A stretch of DNA of 64,000 nucleotides. Origin: Thermomonospora catenispora (GTDB lineage: Bacteria > Actinomycetota > Actinomycetes > Streptosporangiales > Streptosporangiaceae). This document shows positions 3,755-54,461 of the stretch, piece by piece (the stretch's first letter is position 1; every line of letters begins with the position of its first letter). The notes beneath the pieces are model-generated. The model ran no database searches, was not told where the DNA came from, and saw nothing but the letters and a program-made list of their open reading frames with translations. The position numbers and the translations under genes were made by a program. Where the stretch lies: contig NZ_RRYT01000001.1 in NCBI RefSeq assembly GCF_006363815.1, forward strand, positions 1 through 64,000. The letters are read 5' to 3'.

Positions 3755-4913
3755 GCTGGCGCGCCATCACCATGCGCTGGATCTGGTTGGTGCCCTCGTA
3801 GATCTGGGTGATCTTGGCGTCGCGCATCATCCGCTCGACCGGGAAGTCACGGGTGTAGCCGTACCCGCCGAGCAGCTGCACCGCGTCGGTGGTGACCTCC
3901 ATCGCCACGTCCGAGGCCAGGCACTTGCAGGCCGAGGACATGAACGTCAGGTCCGGCACCTCCTCGCCGTTCATCACGCGCTCGGACTTGATCGCGGCGT
4001 GGTAGGTGAGCTGACGGGCGGCCTCGATCTTCATCGCCATGTCGGCGACCATGAACTGCACGCCCTGGAAGTCGGCGATGGCCTTGCCGAACTGCTTGCG
4101 CTCCTTGATGTAGCCGATCGCGTAGTCCAGCGCGCCCTGGGCGATCCCCAGCGCCTGCGCGGCGATGGTGATCCGGGTGTGGTCCAGGGTGGCCAGGGCG
4201 GTCTTGAAGCCGGTGCCCTCCTCGCCGATGATCCGGTCGGCGGGAATCCGCACGTTCTCCAGGATGACCTGGCGGGTGGGCGAGCCCTTGATGCCGAGCT
4301 TGCGCTCCTTGGGCCCGAACGAGACGCCCTCGTCGTCCTTGTCCACCACGAACGCGGAGATGCCGCGGGCGCCCTTGTCGGGGTCGGTGACGGCCATCAC
4401 CGTGTAGTACTGCGACACCCCGGCGTTGGTGATCCACATCTTGACGCCGTTGAGCACCCAGTGGTCGCCGTCCCGGACCGCCCGGGTCTTCATCGAGGCG
4501 GCGTCGGAGCCGGCCTCGGGCTCGGAGAGCGCGTAGGAGAACATGGCTTCGCCGCGCGCCACCGGGGTCAGATACTTTTTCTTGAGCTCCTCGGAGCCCG
4601 ACAGCAGCAGCGGCATGGTGCCGAGCTTGTTCACCGCCGGGATCAGCGAGGAGGAGGCGCACACCCGGGCGACCTCCTCGATCACGATCACGGTGGCGAG
4701 GGCGTCGGCGCCGGCGCCGCCGTAGGACTCGGGGATGTGCACGGCGTGCAGCTCGTTCTGCACGAGCGCGTCCAACGCGTCCTGCGGGAACTCGCCGGTC
4801 TCGTCGACCTCCGCGGCATGCGGCGCGATCTTGGTTTCGGCGAGCTCGCGGACCGTCTGGCGCAGCAGCTCGTGCTCCTCGGACGGGGCGTACGCGGGAA
4901 TGTCGGAACTCAT
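3744..4913 (-). CDS. Acyl-CoA dehydrogenase (FadE type)
   Basis: 389 aa, normal length for the short/medium-chain family. FAD-dependent alpha,beta-dehydrogenation of acyl-CoA thioesters in fatty-acid or branched-chain catabolism. N-terminal helical domain (about 8-120), then the FAD-binding beta domain with YALSEPEAGSDAA and WITNAG, then the C-terminal helical domain with QLLGGYGYTRDFPVERMMRD. The predicted catalytic base is the glutamate of IYEGTNQIQRM, as in short-chain enzymes. There is no Shine-Dalgarno; a TAGTCT hexamer lies exactly 7 nt before the ATG, so the mRNA is probably leaderless. It is divergent from UDP-glucose dehydrogenase and isolated from other beta-oxidation genes. Chain-length preference is not inferable. 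Confidence 0.95.
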   Translation of the reverse strand: MSSDIPAYAPSEEHELLRQTVRELAETKIAPHAAEVDETGEFPQDALDALVQNELHAVHIPESYGGAGADALATVIVIEEVARVCASSSLIPAVNKLGTMPLLLSGSEELKKKYLTPVARGEAMFSYALSEPEAGSDAASMKTRAVRDGDHWVLNGVKMWITNAGVSQYYTVMAVTDPDKGARGISAFVVDKDDEGVSFGPKERKLGIKGSPTRQVILENVRIPADRIIGEEGTGFKTALATLDHTRITIAAQALGIAQGALDYAIGYIKERKQFGKAIADFQGVQFMVADMAMKIEAARQLTYHAAIKSERVMNGEEVPDLTFMSSACKCLASDVAMEVTTDAVQLLGGYGYTRDFPVERMMRDAKITQIYEGTNQIQRMVMARQLLK

Positions 4914-48209: not shown

Positions 48210-49964
48210 GTGCGCAAGGTCCTGATCGCCAATCGCGGTGAGATCGCCGTACGTATCGCCCGTGCCTGCAGAGATGAGGGCCTGGCGAGCGTGGCGGTGT
48301 ACGCCGAGCCGGATCTGGACGCGTTGCACGTGCGGGTCGCCGACGAGGCGTACGCACTGGGCGGGCGCACCGCGGCCGAGAGCTACCTCGACATCGACAA
48401 GATCCTCAAGATCGCGACGGAGTCGGGGGCGGACGCGGTGCATCCCGGATACGGCTTCCTGGCCGAGAACGCCGACTTCGCCGCCGCGGTGCACAACGCC
48501 GGGCTGACCTGGATCGGCCCGCCGCCGGAGGCGATCCGGGCGCTGGGCGACAAGGTGCGGGCCCGGCACATCGCGCAGAAGGTCGGCGCGCCGCTGGTGG
48601 CCGGGACCAAGGACCCGGTGTCGGGCGTGGAGGAGGTGCTGGAGTTCGCCCGCGAGCACGGCCTGCCGATCGCGATCAAGGCCGCCTACGGCGGCGGCGG
48701 ACGCGGGCTGAAGGTGGCCCGCACCCCGGAGGAGATCCCCGACCTGTACGAGTCGGCGGTGCGCGAGGCGGTCGGGGCGTTCGGCCGCGGCGAGTGCTTC
48801 GTGGAGCGTTACCTGGACCGTCCCCGGCACGTGGAGACCCAGTGCCTGGCCGACGCGCACGGCAACGTGGTGGTGGTCTCCACCCGGGACTGCTCGCTGC
48901 AGCGCAGGCACCAGAAGCTGGTGGAGGAGGCCCCGGCGCCGTTCCTGACCGAGGAGCAGGTCGAGCTGCTGTACTCCTCCTCCAAGGCGATCCTGAAGGA
49001 GGCCGGGTACGTCGGCGCCGGCACGTGCGAGTTCCTGGTCGGGCGGGACGGGACGATCTCGTTCCTGGAGGTCAACACCCGGCTGCAGGTCGAGCACCCG
49101 GTCACCGAGGAGGTCACCGGCATCGACCTGGTGCGGGAGATGTTCCGCATCGCCGCCGGCGAGCCGCTGGGCTATGACGACCCGCCGGTGCGCGGCCACT
49201 CCATCGAGTTCCGCATCAACGCCGAGGACGCCGGCCGCAACTTCCTGCCCGCCGTGGGCACCCTGTCCACCTGGCGTCCGCCGTCCGGCCCCGGGGTCCG
49301 GCTGGACGCCGGGTACGAGGAGGGGGCGTCCGTCCCGCAGGAGTACGACTCCCTGATCGCCAAGCTGATCGTCACCGGCGCCACCCGGCGGCAGGCCATC
49401 GAGCGCTCCCGGCGCGCGCTGGCCGAGATGCAGGTCGACGGGATGCCGACGGTGCTGCCGTTCCACCGGGCGGTGCTGGAGGACCCGGCGTTCGTCTCCG
49501 AGCCGTTCTCCGTCCACACCCGGTGGATCGAGACCGAGTTCGACAACACCATCGAGCCCTACCCCGCCGTGCCCGCCGAGGAGGCCGAGGAGGCCGAGCG
49601 CGAGCGCATCACCGTCGAGGTGGGCGGCAAGCGCCTGGAGGTCGTGCTGCCCGCCGGTCTGGGGGCGCTGGGCGGTCAGCCCGGCGGGGGCAAGGCCGCC
49701 CCGGCCCGGCGCCGGCGCGGCAAGAAGACCGGCGTCGCCGCCGGCGGCGACGCCCTGGTCAGCCCCATGCAGGGCACCATCGTCAAGGTCGACGTGGAGG
49801 AGGGCGCCACCGTCGAGGCCGGCGACACCATCGTGGTGTTGGAGGCGATGAAGATGGAGCAGCCCTTGACCGCGCACAAGCCCGGCGTGGTCACCGGCCT
49901 GTCCGCCGAGGTCGGCGCCACCGTCAGCAGCGGCGCCGTGATCTGCGAGATCAAGGACGCCTGA
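48210..49964 (+). CDS. accA: Acyl-CoA carboxylase alpha subunit (biotin carboxylase plus BCCP)
   Basis: 584 aa from GTG 48210, with GGAGGAG 6 nt upstream. Biotin carboxylase domain (about 1-445): [20 protein letters not shown], the ATP-grasp glycine loop [27 protein letters not shown] and [15 protein letters not shown] basic linker (about 505-515, [10 protein letters not shown]) leads to a C-terminal biotinyl domain with EAMKMEQ, lysine being the site modified by BirA. Carboxylates biotin with ATP and bicarbonate, handing it to the AccD5/PccB-type beta subunit at 21.5 kb. Which acyl-CoA is used depends on the beta subunit. Confidence 0.96.
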
Positions 49965-49987
49965 GCCCGCCCCTCGTCGCGGCTCCC

Positions 49988-50024
49988 GCGCGGCTCCCGG
50001 CCGTTCCGCGGCCGGGAGCCGCGC
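49988..50024. terminator. Very strong bidirectional hairpin
   Basis: GCGCGGCTCCCGGCCG (49988-50003) is perfectly complementary to CGGCCGGGAGCCGCGC (50009-50024) with a TTCCG loop: a 16-bp stem between the convergent carboxylase alpha and amidohydrolase genes. No T-tract. Confidence 0.75.
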
Positions 50025-50070
50025 GCCGTCTTCGGCGTCGTCGCGGGAGGCGGAGGGGATCTCTCCGGGG

Positions 50071-50570
50071 TCAGCGCAGGCGGGCGGCGACGGTGGGCAG
50101 GAGCCGAAGGGCGTTGGCGCGGTCGATGGCGGCGCGCGCCGACGGGCTGATCGCCGGGTCGCGGTCGAAGGCGCGGCGGGCGTGGGCGACCTCGTGCGCC
50201 TCCACCTGAGGCCAGTCGGTGCCGTACAGGACGCGTTCGGCGCCGACGGCGCCGAGCAGCGTCGGCGAGGCGTAGGGCGACACCGGCATGGCCGTGTCGT
50301 AGTAGAAGCGCTTGAGCGCCCGGCGGAAGGCGTCGGGATCGGGCCCCTCGCCCCGGCGGCCGGCCCGTTCGACGCGGGCCGCGATGTAGGGGAGGAACCC
50401 GCCGCCGTGGGAGAGGATGACCGAGATCCGGGGGTAGCGGTCCAGCGTTCCCGAGGCGATGAGGCTGAGGGCGCAGCGGGTGGTGTCGTACATGAAGTCG
50501 GCGATGTAGTTCTCGACGCCGGGGATCGGCTCGGGATCCTCGGGAAGGGCGTCGGGGTTGGTCACTGGTG
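50071..50570 (-). pseudogene. Amidohydrolase, 3' half separated by IS110 insertion
   Basis: About 166 codons encoding the C-terminal half of an amidohydrolase_2 (TIM-barrel, decarboxylase-type) protein, from PVTNPDALP to the stop at 50071. It contains the metal/active-site regions ISVILSHGGGFLPYIAARV (His) and VLYGTDWPQVE (Asp). The frame runs on into the IS but has no native start. It joins the 5' half at 52061 with the codons intact once the 1490-bp element is removed: MT then PVTNPD. Not functional as it stands. Confidence 0.9.
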
Positions 50571-50620
50571 CACCCTCCTTGGTGCGGGCACTGGAAGAGT
50601 GCTCGTGGTTGGATGCCGGT

Positions 50621-50763
50621 GAGAGCCGGGGTGACGGCCTGGGTGGGTCGCTGTGCGACAGCCCGCATGACACTGCCGCCCCCGGCTCTCCCGGGACTGT
50701 GGACCGGCAACAGAGGGATGCGCCGCAGAGCGCCAGTCAGTGACCGCCCGGAGAGCAGTCCCG
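50621..50763 (+). ncRNA. Predicted IS110 bridge RNA (two guide-loop hairpins)
   Basis: First hairpin: GAGAGCCGGGG (50621-50631) pairs perfectly with CCCCGGCTCTC (50680-50690); inside, CGGC/GCCG and an apical GCTGT-GCG-ACAGC leave a two-sided internal loop. The left side GGGTGGGTC (50641-50649) agrees at 8 of 9 positions with the plus strand left of the insertion (50555-50563). The right side CATGACACT (50666-50674) can pair with the plus strand GGTGTCATG across the core and right flank, one pair being U-G. Second hairpin: CGGGACTG (50692-50699) with CAGTCCCG (50756-50763). Its left loop ACAGAGGG matches ACACAGGG at the element's right end (52049-52056) at 7 of 8. The right donor guide is unclear. 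RNA ends are not known. Confidence 0.7.
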
Positions 50764-50798
50764 TCACCGGTTTGTCGCCGATGAGCTGAAGGAGCCCT

Positions 50799-52043
50799 GT
50801 GGCACTGCCGGACTGCGTTTACTACGTCGGGATCGACTGGGGATCGTCCGAGCACGCGGTATGCGTGATCGACGAGGCCGGGAAGATCAGAACCCGGTTC
50901 ACCGTCGCCCACAGCGCCGCCGGGTTCACCGAGCTGGCCCGCCGTCTGGGCAGGCTGGGCGAGGCCGAGCAGGTGCCGATCGGGATCGAGCGCCCCGACG
51001 GCCGGCTGGTGGACGTCCTGCTGGAGGCAGGACACCCGGTGGTGCCGGTGAAGTCGAACGCGATCAAGGCATGGCGGGACGCCGAGGTGCTGTCGGGAGC
51101 CAAGTCCGACGCCGGCGACGCTCACGTCATCGCCGAGTACCTGCGGCTGCGCCAGCACCGGCTGACCCCGGCACGGCCGTATTCGGACCAGACCAAGGCG
51201 CTGCGCACGGTGGTGCGCACACGCGACGACATCGTCAAGCTGCGGGTGATGGCGACCAACATGCTCTCCTCGCTGCTGGATGCCTTCTGGCCCGGCGCCA
51301 AGGAGATCTTCAAAGACGTCGAGTCGCCGATCGGGCTGGCGTTCCTGACCGACTATCCGACCCCGGCCTCGGCGGCCCACCTGGGCGAGAAGCGGATCGC
51401 GGCGTTCTGCGCCCGGCACGGCTACTCCGGCAAGCGCCCCGCAGCGGTGCTGCTGGCCCGGCTGCGGTCGGCCCCGCCCGGGGTGATGGGCCAGGCCGAG
51501 ACCGCCGCAGGCCGCGACGCCGTGCTGGCCCTGGTCGCGGTCCTGAAGACCCTCGGCACGGTGCGCAAGGACCTGGACCGCTCGGTCCGGGCACGGCTGG
51601 CCGAACATCCCGATGCCGCCGTGTTCACCTCGCTGCCCAGGGCCGGGCAGATCCGGGCCGCACAGGTCCTGGCCGAATGGGGAGACGCCCGCTCCGCCTA
51701 CGACGGCCCCGACGCGGTCGCGGCGTTCGCCGGAGTCGCTCCGGTCACCAAGGCGTCCGGACGTCACCACGCGGTCACCTACCGGTGGGCCTGCAACAAA
51801 CGCTTCCGCCAGGCCATCACCGGCTTCGCCGACAACAGCCGGCACGCCAATCCCTGGGCCGCCGGCATCTACCAGCGCGCCCGCGCCCGCGGCATGGACC
51901 ACCCCCACGCCGTCCGTGTCCTGGCCCGCGCCTGGATACGGGTGATCTACCGCTGCTGGCTCGACGGCATCCCCTACGACCCCGCCAAACACGGGACCGC
52001 AGCCGCACAAACCAAGCAAGCGACCACTCCATCTGCTGCTTGA
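50799..52043 (+). CDS. IS110-family transposase (DEDD and Tnp_20 domains)
   Basis: 414 aa from GTG 50799, with AAGGAG about 6 nt upstream. The N-terminal RuvC-like DEDD domain starts YYVGIDWGSSEHAVCVID (first Asp about residue 13) and includes GIERPDGRLVDVLLEAG and GAKSDAGDAHVIAEYL. The C-terminal Transposase_20 domain has TSLPRAGQIRAAQVLAEWG and the catalytic serine in VTKASGRHH. Full length, no frameshift, so probably active. Catalyses RNA-guided site-specific recombination in characterised relatives. Codon usage is like the host, suggesting a related actinomycete source. Confidence 0.95.
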   Translation: MALPDCVYYVGIDWGSSEHAVCVIDEAGKIRTRFTVAHSAAGFTELARRLGRLGEAEQVPIGIERPDGRLVDVLLEAGHPVVPVKSNAIKAWRDAEVLSGAKSDAGDAHVIAEYLRLRQHRLTPARPYSDQTKALRTVVRTRDDIVKLRVMATNMLSSLLDAFWPGAKEIFKDVESPIGLAFLTDYPTPASAAHLGEKRIAAFCARHGYSGKRPAAVLLARLRSAPPGVMGQAETAAGRDAVLALVAVLKTLGTVRKDLDRSVRARLAEHPDAAVFTSLPRAGQIRAAQVLAEWGDARSAYDGPDAVAAFAGVAPVTKASGRHHAVTYRWACNKRFRQAITGFADNSRHANPWAAGIYQRARARGMDHPHAVRVLARAWIRVIYRCWLDGIPYDPAKHGTAAAQTKQATTPSAA

Positions 52044-52060
52044 GGTTGACACAGGGGGTG

Positions 52061-52658
52061 TCATGATGACGGCGCGGCGCCGGTTCAGCTCCTCGAACAG
52101 CGGGTCGAAGACCTTGTCCCCCAGGTAGCGGCCGCCGGCGGTGTTCATCATCAGCACTCCGTCGGCGCCGAGCTCGTCCAGCGCGTACTCCGCCTCCCGC
52201 AGCGCCACGTCCACGTGCAGCAGCGGCAGGTAGGCGAAGAAGCCGAAGCGGGTGGGGCGATCCCGGACCAGGTCGGCCAGGGACTCGTTGAAGACCCGCG
52301 CGCCGGCGGCGGCGACGGACTTGTCGTGGAAGACCTCCGAGGGGGCGGGGGCGGAGGCGACGCCGAGGGCGATCCGGTTGGCGTCCATGGTCTCCAGGGT
52401 CTTGTTCAGGTCCCACTGTCCCCAACGGGGGCCGCCCCGTGGGGGCAGCAGACCGTGTTCGACCGCCCAGGCGCGCATGGCGGGGGGCACCGCGTGATGG
52501 TGGGTGTCGATGCGTCCGGCCGCGGAACGCCCGGTGGGGGACCCGGCGGCGGGTCCGGTGACGTGGGCGGCGCCGGCCGCGGCCCCGGCGCCGAGGGCGA
52601 CCGCGGCCAGCGCGCCCGCGCGCAGTGCGGTGCGTCGGTTGACGGATGAGTTCTGCAT
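52061..52658 (-). pseudogene. Amidohydrolase, 5' half with Tat-type signal, broken by IS110
   Basis: About 199 codons from ATG 52658 (ATG 52670 and 52685 are also in frame; the latter lies inside the operator). NRRTALRAGALAAVALGAGA is a twin-arginine-like signal, so the product was exported. RIDTHHHAVPP carries the metal-binding HxH. It ends at RRRAVIMT where the element begins; translation then runs into IS sequence. Reconstructed with the 3' half, the protein would be about 365 aa. Divergent from a MarR gene, its probable regulator. Confidence 0.9.
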
Positions 52659-52673
52659 AGCCAGAAGCATCCG

Positions 52674-52697
52674 AGACAATCTCATCTGAGACTATCT
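52674..52697. promoter_or_regulatory. Palindromic operator between amidohydrolase and marR
   Basis: A 24-bp imperfect palindrome, 18 of 24 positions symmetric, centred on TCTCATCTGAGA (perfect 5-bp arms). It covers TAGTCT (52689-52694, minus), the likely -10 of the amidohydrolase, and is 12 bp from the marR -10. Size and position suit a MarR dimer controlling both genes. Confidence 0.65.
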
Positions 52698-52708
52698 GGC
52701 TAGCCCCC

Positions 52709-52714
52709 TATCAT
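52709..52714 (+). promoter_or_regulatory. -10 element of marR (leaderless type)
   Basis: TATCAT, 6 nt before GTG 52721. Confidence 0.45.
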
Positions 52715-52720
52715 GGGCTG

Positions 52721-53209
52721 GTGCCGACCCCACCCATGACCGCCATCGGCGACCCGAACGGCGACGACGTGGCCCTGGGAATGCTCCTGGCGACGGCGCA
52801 TCAGCACGCCCGGCGCGTCCTCGACCGGGCCCTCGGGCACCTGGGCATCCAGACCCGTCACTTCGGCGTGCTGGCGGCCCTCGACAGGCACGGCCCCGTC
52901 AGCCAACGCGAGCTCAGCTCCCTGCTCGACCTCGACAAATCGACGATGGTCCGGATCATGGACGAGCTGGAGCGCCACGGCCTGGCCGTCCGCAACCGCG
53001 ACGCCCGCGACCGGCGCGCCTACGCGATCGAGCTGACCCCCCGCGGGCGCGCCACGGTCCGGGCGAGCGGCGAGGCCGCCGCCCGGGCGGCCGCCCGGCT
53101 CTTCGGCGGCCTCGCCCCGACGGACCGCGAACGCCTGGTCGCGATGCTCGGCGAGATCATCGCGCGCGCCGCCGACCCGCCGCCGGCGGACCCCGCTCCC
53201 CCGCGCTGA
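52721..53209 (+). CDS. MarR-family transcriptional regulator
   Basis: 162 aa from GTG 52721; ATG 52736 is an alternative. Winged helix (about 40-130): IQTRHFGVLAALDRHGPVSQ, recognition helix region LDLDKSTMVRIMDELERHGL, and wing RDARDRRAYAIELTPRG. Flanking helices form the dimer. No SD; TATCAT lies 6 nt upstream. Divergent from the disrupted amidohydrolase, with a palindrome in between that it probably binds. With that target gene broken, its remaining role may be autoregulation. Confidence 0.93.
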   Translation: MPTPPMTAIGDPNGDDVALGMLLATAHQHARRVLDRALGHLGIQTRHFGVLAALDRHGPVSQRELSSLLDLDKSTMVRIMDELERHGLAVRNRDARDRRAYAIELTPRGRATVRASGEAAARAAARLFGGLAPTDRERLVAMLGEIIARAADPPPADPAPPR

Positions 53210-53378
53210 GCCTCGCCCCGTCCCTCCCCGCCCCCTCTCCCCCGCCCGGACCGACGATCGCCGGATGCGCGCATCGCCCACGGCACGGCGGTCGCCACGC
53301 CGCGGGCCTCCGGGTCTCGGCGCCGGGCAGGCATGGATCCCGCCTGCTGGGTACGGGCGGACGCGAAGGAGGGATCTC

Positions 53379-54461
53379 GTGAAACTGGCCTATCTACGTC
53401 CCCTGTACGAGCACTCCGGTCCGTTCACCTCGGTCTACCTGGCCACCGAACGGCACACCGCGGACGCCGCCAAGGCCCTCGCCCTGCGCTGGCGGCACGC
53501 GCGGACCGAGCTGAGCAGGCTCGGTGTCGACGAGGCGACCCTCCGTGCGCTGGAGGAGATCATCACCGACCGGGACAACGCCGCCCCGGGGCGTGCGCTG
53601 TTCGCCGCCGACGGCCGGGTGGTGCACCACGAGGTGCTGCCCGAACCCCCGCCGCAGATGCTGCTCAAGGTGGGCGAGCTGCCGTATGTCATGCCGCTGC
53701 TGGCGAGCCGGCGCGAACCGGTCCCGCATGTGTGCGTCAAGGCCGACCGCACGGGCGCGGAGATCATCAGCGTGACCGACAAACGGCAGGTCACCACCGT
53801 GGACGGGATGGACTGGCCGATTCGCAAGGTCCGGGCGGGCGGCTGGTCGGAGTCGCACTTCCAGCGCAACGCCGAGGAGACCTGGGAGGCCAACGCCCGA
53901 GAGGTGGCCGCGGCGGTCGTCCGGGAGGCCGAGGCGGTGGACGCCGCGGTGATCATCGTGGCCGGCGACGTCCGCGCCCGCGAGCTGATCGCGCACGACC
54001 TGGGAGAGCGGTGGGCCTCCCGGACGGTGATCACCGATCGGGGCGCCCGCAACGCCGGGGCCGATGAGGAGCTGCTGGAGAAGGAGGTCGGCCGGATCCT
54101 GCGCGAGGTGCAGGACCGGCGCCTGGCCGAGGTGATGGCGCGGTTCCGCGAAGGGCACGGGCGCGGCGACGCGGTCGCCGGGCTGGAGGCCGTCACGGAG
54201 GCGCTGCGCAACGGGCAGGTGGAGACCCTGCTGGCGGCCGGCGGCCGGATCCGCGGCGAACTGTGGTTCGGTCCGCAGGCCCACGAACTGGCCACCACCA
54301 AGAAGGCCCTGCAGGAGATGGGCGTGTCCGATCCGCGTCCCGCGCCGGCCGGATCGGTGCTGGCCCGCGCGGCGACGGCCACGGACGCTGAGATCCTGTT
54401 CCCGCGGGAGTTGGACGCACCCGGCGGACTGGGCGCCGTGCTGCGCTACACCCAACCCTGA
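53379..54461 (+). CDS. Rv2629/Balon-like ribosome hibernation factor (bacterial eRF1-fold)
   Basis: 360 aa from GTG 53379, with AAGGAGGG 5 nt upstream. It matches the Rv2629-type bacterial aeRF1 family in layout: N-terminal domain (about 1-130, YLRPLYEHSGPFTSVYLATE), central domain (about 135-260, VCVKADRTGAEIISVTDKRQ to AVIIVAGDVRARELIAHDL), and C-terminal domain (about 270-360). The GGQ of true release factors is absent, so peptide release is not expected. Relatives such as Balon bind the ribosomal A site during stress. Two membrane-protein genes follow at 44 and 27 bp. The assignment is by overall sequence pattern. Confidence 0.85.
   Translation: MKLAYLRPLYEHSGPFTSVYLATERHTADAAKALALRWRHARTELSRLGVDEATLRALEEIITDRDNAAPGRALFAADGRVVHHEVLPEPPPQMLLKVGELPYVMPLLASRREPVPHVCVKADRTGAEIISVTDKRQVTTVDGMDWPIRKVRAGGWSESHFQRNAEETWEANAREVAAAVVREAEAVDAAVIIVAGDVRARELIAHDLGERWASRTVITDRGARNAGADEELLEKEVGRILREVQDRRLAEVMARFREGHGRGDAVAGLEAVTEALRNGQVETLLAAGGRIRGELWFGPQAHELATTKKALQEMGVSDPRPAPAGSVLARAATATDAEILFPRELDAPGGLGAVLRYTQP

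Follow-up and report, generated by a model that had tools for sequence, protein, structure and literature searches.

Genomic organization of the locus

The window (the whole 64-kb stretch of DNA that was analyzed) contains an amidohydrolase gene split by an insertion sequence and, judged from its sequence, the segment from 50561 to 52061 is an element of the IS110 group. The features of the locus are given below, with the observations that define them in parentheses.

50071-52685, minus strand: interrupted Amidohydro_2 gene (N-terminal part to the right of the element, C-terminal part to the left)
50555-50560, plus strand: left target (LT) GGGTTG, host DNA (positions -6 to -1; 5 of 6 match the guide)
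50561-50562, plus strand: GT core, left copy (ends of relatives; the 2-bp width comes from a relative's unoccupied site)
50562-52064, minus strand: predicted antisense frame, 500 codons long (opens at the ATG of the target, closes at a TGA overlapping the start codon in the left end)
50563-50565, minus strand: putative start codon GTG within the left end, facing outward (Shine-Dalgarno-like AAGGAGG at 50574-50580)
50563-50798, plus strand: left end (LE), non-coding on this strand (CACTGGTGCACC follows the core and is similar in relatives)
50580-50774, plus strand: predicted bridge RNA (205 bits against our model R1, which has the window among its 15 sequences)
50584-50606, plus strand: 5' stem-loop of the bridge RNA (8 of 9 pairs with changes on both sides)
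50641-50648, plus strand: left target guide (LTG), GGGTGG + GT (tabulated flanks and guides, covariation)
50665-50671, plus strand: right target guide (RTG), GCATGAC (pairs with top-strand GTCATG, mismatch at +5)
50693-50762, plus strand: predicted donor-binding hairpin (consensus helices 5-7)
50710-50717, plus strand: left donor guide (LDG), ACAGAGGG (7 of 8 against ACAGGGGG in the right end)
50738-50744, plus strand: right donor guide (RDG), CAGTGAC (7 of 7 against GT-CACTG at the left end)
50799-52043, plus strand: IS110 recombinase, 414 aa, GTG start (D13, E64, D104, D107 and S320 at the catalytic places)
52044-52059, plus strand: right end (RE), GGTTGACACAGGGGGT, 16 nt (contains TTGACA at 52046-52051)
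52060-52061, plus strand: GT core, right copy (ends of relatives)
52062-52066, plus strand: right target (RT) CATGA, host DNA (opposite strand to an internal ATG that is in frame in the interrupted gene)

The recombinase matches the Pfam families DEDD_Tnp_IS110 (9.8e-37) and Transposase_20 (7.3e-13) and scores 177.9 bits against the NCBIfam model NF033542, 'IS110 family RNA-guided transposase', which has a cut-off of 140. A sequence search of the PDB with this protein returned ISCro4 (6.2e-8) and IS621 (1.2e-6), and its residues D13, E64, D104, D107 and S320 align with D11, E60, D102, D105 and S241 of IS621, the catalytic roles of which are given in passages of PMC11208158. A DEDD/Tnp_20 recombinase with a predicted D-E-D-D and catalytic serine set places the element in the IS110 group. 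Two narrower classes were considered and rejected: the IS621-like class with a CT core, the core here being GT, and the IS1111 group, the right end here being only 16 nt long and the RNA lying in the left end.

The initial annotation had placed the insertion point at a GGTG overlap, a boundary that was dropped when the ends were compared with those of the relatives, whose cores are 2 bp wide (GT, AT or CT). This comparison gives a GT core at 50561-50562 and 52060-52061, and the element's own edge bases are CACTGG... at its left and ...GGGGGT at its right. Scarless insertion with a short repeated core can be seen directly in a relative: when the flanks of L062 are compared with the unoccupied plasmid L068, the left flank ends at base 1061 and the right flank begins at base 1060, their overlap is the 2-bp CT core, and the right half-site is already host DNA in L068. 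For the window the evidence is the reading frame: excision in silico with one GT retained (done by eye) yields AVIMTNPD in frame, where an uninterrupted homologue has AVVFTHPF. The 5.35-Mb draft genome (G000, 109 contigs, with the window on contig C109) contains one full copy of the element. Locus L022, from a genome of the same family, has the same flanks as a locus of Nonomuraea gerenzanensis (L061), which indicates that the window's genome is from an actinomycete, probably of the Streptosporangiaceae.

The TTGACA in the right end is a perfect hexamer that is kept in many relatives. It is a candidate -35 box for a circle-junction promoter and overlaps the donor-guide match; inspection by eye found no consensus -10 hexamer in the left end, and a scan of the linear region 50400-52200 found no consensus promoter.

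Collection of relatives

The relatives used in this work comprise seven loci in genome contigs, matches at E <= 1e-60 in 24 of 345 genomes of the same order (own genome included), and 17 plasmid records at the same threshold. When the best four candidates per genome were considered, a class-level search returned only the element's own genome (1 of 394) at 1e-140, and a search of the family of the L003 genome returned 3 of 394 at 1e-120, all already known. Viral contigs gave 20 pattern matches and no relative, and phages gave no relative at 1e-40.

Several loci were left out of the covariation analysis. Those left out as repeats of an insertion or site already counted were L061 (Nonomuraea gerenzanensis), equivalent to L022; L062 and L066, equivalent to L063; L043, L044 and L047-L051, which repeat L038, L039 and L003-L007; and further rows of the window itself (L001, L010, L040 and L053). 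Ends that could not be matched or were truncated removed L008, L009, L014, L023, L027, L029, L030, L031, L033, L035, L036, L052, L056 and L059, and L067 was omitted as lacking a match to the RNA model. The remaining data consist of 31 RNAs and 35 insertions, divided into set 1 (16 RNAs, 20 insertions) and set 2 (15 RNAs, 15 insertions).

Predicted bridge RNA in the left end

In the leader of the recombinase gene, two hairpins of high stability, each with a two-sided loop, had been described, and the folding, the shuffled controls and a 15-sequence consensus all confirm them. The segment 50583-50772 folds with -98.6 kcal/mol (z -2.87), and none of 200 shuffled sequences was equally stable. The consensus of the 15 aligned sequences, the window among them, has the same shape, with a stem-loop at the 5' end followed by two internal-loop hairpins, and 25 of its 48 pairs show compensatory (double) changes. 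This 48-pair structure pairs in 96.8% of 718 cells, a value that none of 500 shuffles reached; six versions of the structure that were slid along the alignment gave at most 51.9% paired cells and 11 pairs with double changes, a comparison that favors the real structure because it was derived from the same alignment. Near relatives outside its training set, which have 38-51% protein identity, model R1 finds the RNA at all 11 genome loci and at 12 of 13 plasmid loci, the latter with E values from 1.6e-22 to 3.7e-8; in the plasmid scan L067 had no match and L059 a partial one. The region 49000-54000 gave no match in Rfam. The left end is predicted to encode a bridge RNA made of a 5' stem-loop and two internal-loop hairpins.

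Donor guides

The left side of the second loop had been reported to match the right end of the element at 7 of 8 positions, and the same agreement was obtained here (ACAGAGGG with ACAGGGGG). The right donor guide, which the initial annotation had left open, could now be placed at 50738-50744, where CAGTGAC agrees with the left end at all seven positions. Both guides follow the element ends across 27 elements: the LDG agrees at 193 of 216 positions (146.2 under permutation), the core base of the RDG in 26 of 27 (12.1) and its remaining bases at 157 of 162 positions (128.9), each value being reached in none of 20,000 permutations, with the reservation that related elements share both sides and that descent inflates all three figures. 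The three positions past the eighth base of the LDG match in 2, 1 and 0 of the 27 elements. The match therefore stops before the core, whereas in IS621 the pairing of the LDG includes it.

Target guides and target length

The bases of the first loop vary together with the host DNA that flanks each element. For the six left positions the observed agreement in the pooled sets was 125.3 against 83.7 (sd 5.3) under permutation, and for the five right positions 143.7 against 92.4 (sd 4.7); neither was reached in 20,000 permutations, whether the sets were pooled or taken separately, in a test that disregards relatedness among the elements. The core base gave 31.0 against 14.6 for the LTG and 28.0 against 13.5 for the RTG in the pooled data (0 of 20,000 each). 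Within set 1 the core-base score was reached in 1,257 of 20,000 permutations for either guide, and within set 2 in 1,325 (LTG) and 2,603 (RTG). The core-base signal is significant only on pooling and is therefore a difference between clades that rests on few evolutionary changes. In 28 of 35 rows both target guides fit the core; of the other seven, all with a CT core, six have CG in the LTG and one has a GT-type RTG.

The extent of the guides can be read from set 1, in which agreement exceeds expectation from L-2 through L-6 and from R+3 through R+5 and is lost at L-7 (1 of 20) and R+6 (4 of 18). Position L-1 is nearly invariant (19 of 20, 19.0 expected) and hence uninformative; R+1 and R+2 are likewise uninformative and R+3 can only be T or C, the right flank of set 1 having been found by the pattern CA[TC] after [GA]T, which also restricts the core. 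In this set alone the left score over seven positions was reached in one permutation of 20,000 and the right score over eight positions in none. For set 2 the right flank was taken at a fixed distance from the right end and the RNA anchors were hand-picked from alignments. On these alignments we put the target at 6+2+5 bases, with guides of 6+2 on the left and 2+5 on the right.

The two sides differ in stringency. L019 and L032 were counted on the left side only, which leaves 33 right sides among the 35 insertions, and in 31 of these the target matches the RNA's own right-guide 5-mer at all five positions, with ten different 5-mers represented; the two exceptions are the window (guide CATGC, target CATGA) and L037. 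The left guide matches its target at six of six positions in 6 insertions, five in 7, four in 9, three in 5, two in 6 and one in 2. When all 31 RNAs were compared at each site, the element's own RNA ranked first, ties allowed, at 23 of 33.

Two multi-copy replicons allow a closer look, since it had been proposed that copies with identical loops in unrelated targets would contradict RNA guidance. Genome G074 carries three identical copies with identical RNA, an AT core and AT-type guide bases (L011, L034 and L037), and a Mycobacterium avium plasmid (W01) carries three copies with identical RNA and a GT core. The outcome is mixed: within each trio the right halves are identical or differ little (CAC[AG]G in G074, CATGA in W01), but the left halves are mostly unrelated, with 2, 4 and 2 of 7 positions on guide in G074 and 5, 1 and 2 of 7 in W01. 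For two of the three M. avium copies, a search of the plasmid collection turned up no unoccupied site. As far as these alignments go, the right guide specifies and the left guide tolerates.

The target of the window's element

The guides of the window's RNA specify GGGTGG-GT-CATGC and the occupied site reads GGGTTG-GT-CATGA, an agreement of 11 of 13 with one mismatch in the left half and one on the right at +5. When this 13-mer (6+2+5) was compared with both strands of the 64-kb window, 11 matches occurred at three positions, and at none of the 6,410 positions that have GT at the place of the core. The agreement of 8 of 9 bases between GGGTGGGTC (50641-50649) and 50555-50563 that had been reported first is correct, and a 9-mer match as good as this is found at 22 of 127,984 positions of the window when both strands are counted. 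Taken alone the left flank proves little, as the element's own guide, with 5 of 7, ties for the best score with three of the other 15 RNAs of set 1.

Other details of the earlier reading had to be changed. Its extension of the left match through an opened apical stem (11 of 13 plus a wobble) fails, because the added pairs fall on bases of the element and the stem is conserved (helix 4). On the right the guide role of CATGACACT (50666-50674) holds and its register does not, three of the nine pairs lying on the element bases 52057-52059; the corrected guide, GCATGAC at 50665-50671, comprises the core and five bases and matches at 6 of 7. With these corrections, the central proposal, that the IS110 leader contains a bridge RNA whose target loop specified the occupied site, is supported by the conserved and covarying structure, by the covariation of guides with targets and with donor ends, and by the unoccupied site of a relative.

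Interpretation and alternatives

The most probable explanation, to which we assign a probability of about 0.94, is that the window holds an IS110-group element whose left end encodes a bridge RNA that guides insertion, here into GGGTTG-GT-CATGA. The left end would serve as the template for an RNA of about 190 nt that, once expressed, would be bound by the recombinase; its second loop (LDG and RDG) would recognize the joined ends of the element around the GT core in a circular intermediate, and its first loop (LTG and RTG) would recognize NNNNNN-GT-NNNNN by pairing with opposite strands of the two target halves. The recombinase would then exchange strands at GT, in this instance within the amidohydrolase gene. 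What can be read from the sequences themselves, namely the recombinase family, the RNA structure, the guide lengths, the donor guides and the 2-bp core of a relative, carries this explanation, and we infer that the window's insertion was RNA-guided, probably by this same RNA, with its mismatches either tolerated or due to later drift.

An alternative is that the bridge RNA is real but this particular insertion is due to the RNA of another element acting in trans, or dates from before a drift of the guide. An 11 of 13 match with a mismatch at +5, where 31 of 33 insertions have no right-side mismatch, would fit such an origin, and one other of the 31 RNAs ties with the window's own at this site. 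We nevertheless consider it unlikely, since the element is the sole full copy in the draft genome and its RNA the sole strong match of R1 there (the next match has E 0.79), and since sites as good as this one with a GT core are locally rare, none occurring at the 6,410 GT-core positions mentioned above. Very improbable is that the leader is a cis-regulatory structure of the transposase mRNA, an attenuator or translation control, with the protein choosing the target. Its place directly upstream of the recombinase gene and its great stability would suit a regulatory role, but its loop bases change in step both with the flanking host sequence and with the ends of the element, and ten different right-guide 5-mers go with full matches in 31 of 33 insertions; target choice by the protein alone was dropped in view of this covariation. 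Less probable still is that the agreement of guides and flanks is internal to the element, the conserved motifs GGTCACT and GTGTCAT being its ends and nothing being targeted: the motifs do recur in most copies and CACT... and ...GGGGGT truly belong to the element, but the unoccupied L068 holds GTG-CT-CATG as host DNA, a CAT or CAC start codon stands to the right of the L007 core position in 8 of 11 uninterrupted SDR homologues, and the bases around the core differ among the identical G074 copies.

The element is a well-supported case of a real bridge RNA, from a clade in which GT cores occur naturally and targets measure 6+2+5. The clade is high in GC and mostly actinomycete, and it offers naturally recorded targets together with a measured target length. 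Its natural changes among CT, GT and AT cores, carried through the guides in most rows, could serve as a test set for core reprogramming.

Comparison with known IS110 systems

The element resembles IS621, as described in passages of PMC11208160 and PMC11208158, in a left end that encodes the RNA, in the make-up of this RNA (a 5' stem-loop, a target loop and a donor loop), in left guides that read the bottom strand and right guides that read the top strand, in target guides that include the core, and in a recombinase with DEDD and a catalytic serine. It differs in its core, which is CT in IS621 and here GT (AT in one relative and CT in a more distant set), in a natural right guide of 2+5, in a left guide of 6+2 instead of 7+2, and in a recombinase of 414 aa compared with a chain of 328 residues. 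The landing sites here often seem to be start codons, while the passages of PMC11208160 name REP elements. According to the same sources, the first core base of IS621 is less conserved and GT, AT and TT cores support recombination (PMC11208158), and IS621 given an extended right guide of seven bases also works, longer right guides improving recombination with non-CT cores (PMC11208160). With its non-CT core and seven-base right guide, our clade looks like a natural counterpart of that longer guide.

The seekRNA account of IS110 and IS1111 elements (PMC11187229) is, in the passages considered, a parallel description of the same mechanism. The element agrees with it in having its non-coding region mainly upstream, as in IS110-type elements, and differs from the IS1111 type, in which the RNA is usually downstream, by a right non-coding end of 16 nt.

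Possible start codons at the insertion sites

In 27 of 30 insertions with the right end at a fixed distance, the core is followed on the right by CAT or CAC, which on the antisense strand gives ATG or GTG followed by A. The unoccupied plasmid L068 has an annotated gene that starts exactly at the target CAT and overlaps the end of the upstream gene. For L007, 11 loci were examined among 48 genomes with a match, and ungapped extension of the alignments gave the count of 8 of 11 cited above for CAT or CAC at the corresponding place. For L004, the uninterrupted ispH homologues (11 loci) show no start codon at the insertion site, but they are uninformative, as their N-termini differ there.

In the left end itself, the bases adjoining the core read RTG on the antisense strand in 34 cases of 35, all but L017. 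In 19 of 35 insertions the frame to the left of this codon has no stop for 140 codons or more, a modest excess over 184 of 621 control CAY codons (29.6%); 16 of 35 insertions lack a long downstream frame, and the window's own site is an internal ATG. A Pfam domain begins within 10 residues of the left-end codon in 4 of 10 such proteins searched (LytB/IspH at residue 6, SDR at 3, response regulator at 10 and ABC2 at 5).

An antisense frame running through the whole element from the target's start codon is open, to within two codons of the end, in 26 of 30 insertions. If a stop directly before the terminal TGA is set aside (14 elements, from the printed ends), this frame is interrupted within the left end in 2 of 31 elements, L018 and L032; stops occur in the other two frames in 26 and 23 of 31, and any one frame is open in 26.5% of shuffled left ends. 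Antisense frames that are codon-aligned with GC-rich genes are often open. The openness found here is suggestive only, because the frame is codon-aligned with the recombinase gene.

These observations suggest, tentatively and at somewhat less than even odds, that the bridge RNA has settled on start codons and that the antisense frame and the left-end start codon together re-start the interrupted gene, which would make the insertion nearly harmless. The right guide, by spelling a start codon plus A (RTG-A), would land the element between the start codon and the body of a gene; the host's start codon would then drive an antisense ORF of about 500 codons through the whole element, RNA template included, and this ORF would stop at the TGA that overlaps the left-end start codon with its Shine-Dalgarno-like stretch, from which the interrupted gene would be re-started.

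Such an arrangement recalls IS900 of Mycobacterium avium subsp. paratuberculosis, for which passages of PMC8141618 give the target CATGNNNNNNTCTCCTT, on whose opposite strand a ribosome-binding site and a start codon can be read, and describe hed, a complementary-strand ORF that spans the whole element and has no ribosome-binding site or start codon of its own. The likeness, a possible start-codon target and a predicted whole-element antisense ORF, is one of description, and the passages of PMC8141618 mention neither a guide RNA nor a start codon supplied by the element. The main text of PMC11208160 contains neither 'start codon' nor 'IS900'; PMC11187229 does not contain 'IS900' and its sole 'start codon' is in a curation step of the Methods. 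Among the papers listed, judged by titles, beginnings of abstracts and term counts and including few subscription papers and preprints, none joins bridge RNAs with IS900 or with start-codon targeting. If our tentative reading is correct, it would link bridge RNAs to the reported translation-start preference of IS900, provide a molecular cause for the puzzle of IS900 and hed, and suggest that gene-sparing insertion has been selected.

Additional observations on the relatives

In L057 (558) and L062-L066 (458), six plasmid relatives of which three share the same site, the neighboring gene is annotated from the start codon borne by the element; in L038, L055 and L058 the annotation of the neighboring gene does not start there. 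The L004 insertion (G699) lies near the front of ispH/lytB, and that genome has a second ispH match of 86% identity. L018 and L032 have a different right guide (GTATG) and nearly the same bases to the left of the core. In L016 (1399-1537), a deletion removes most of the donor hairpin and the start of the recombinase, with both ends of the element present. Close to L007, on the minus strand near 3955 (reverse-complement coordinates), are repeats like GGGAACATCCCCGCAGGTGCGGGGGCGAC that resemble a type I-E CRISPR array. Finally, L055 has the left tip of the element twice in tandem at about 450-540, with an alpha/beta hydrolase gene annotated from about the outer tip, and this tandem suggests repeated insertion.
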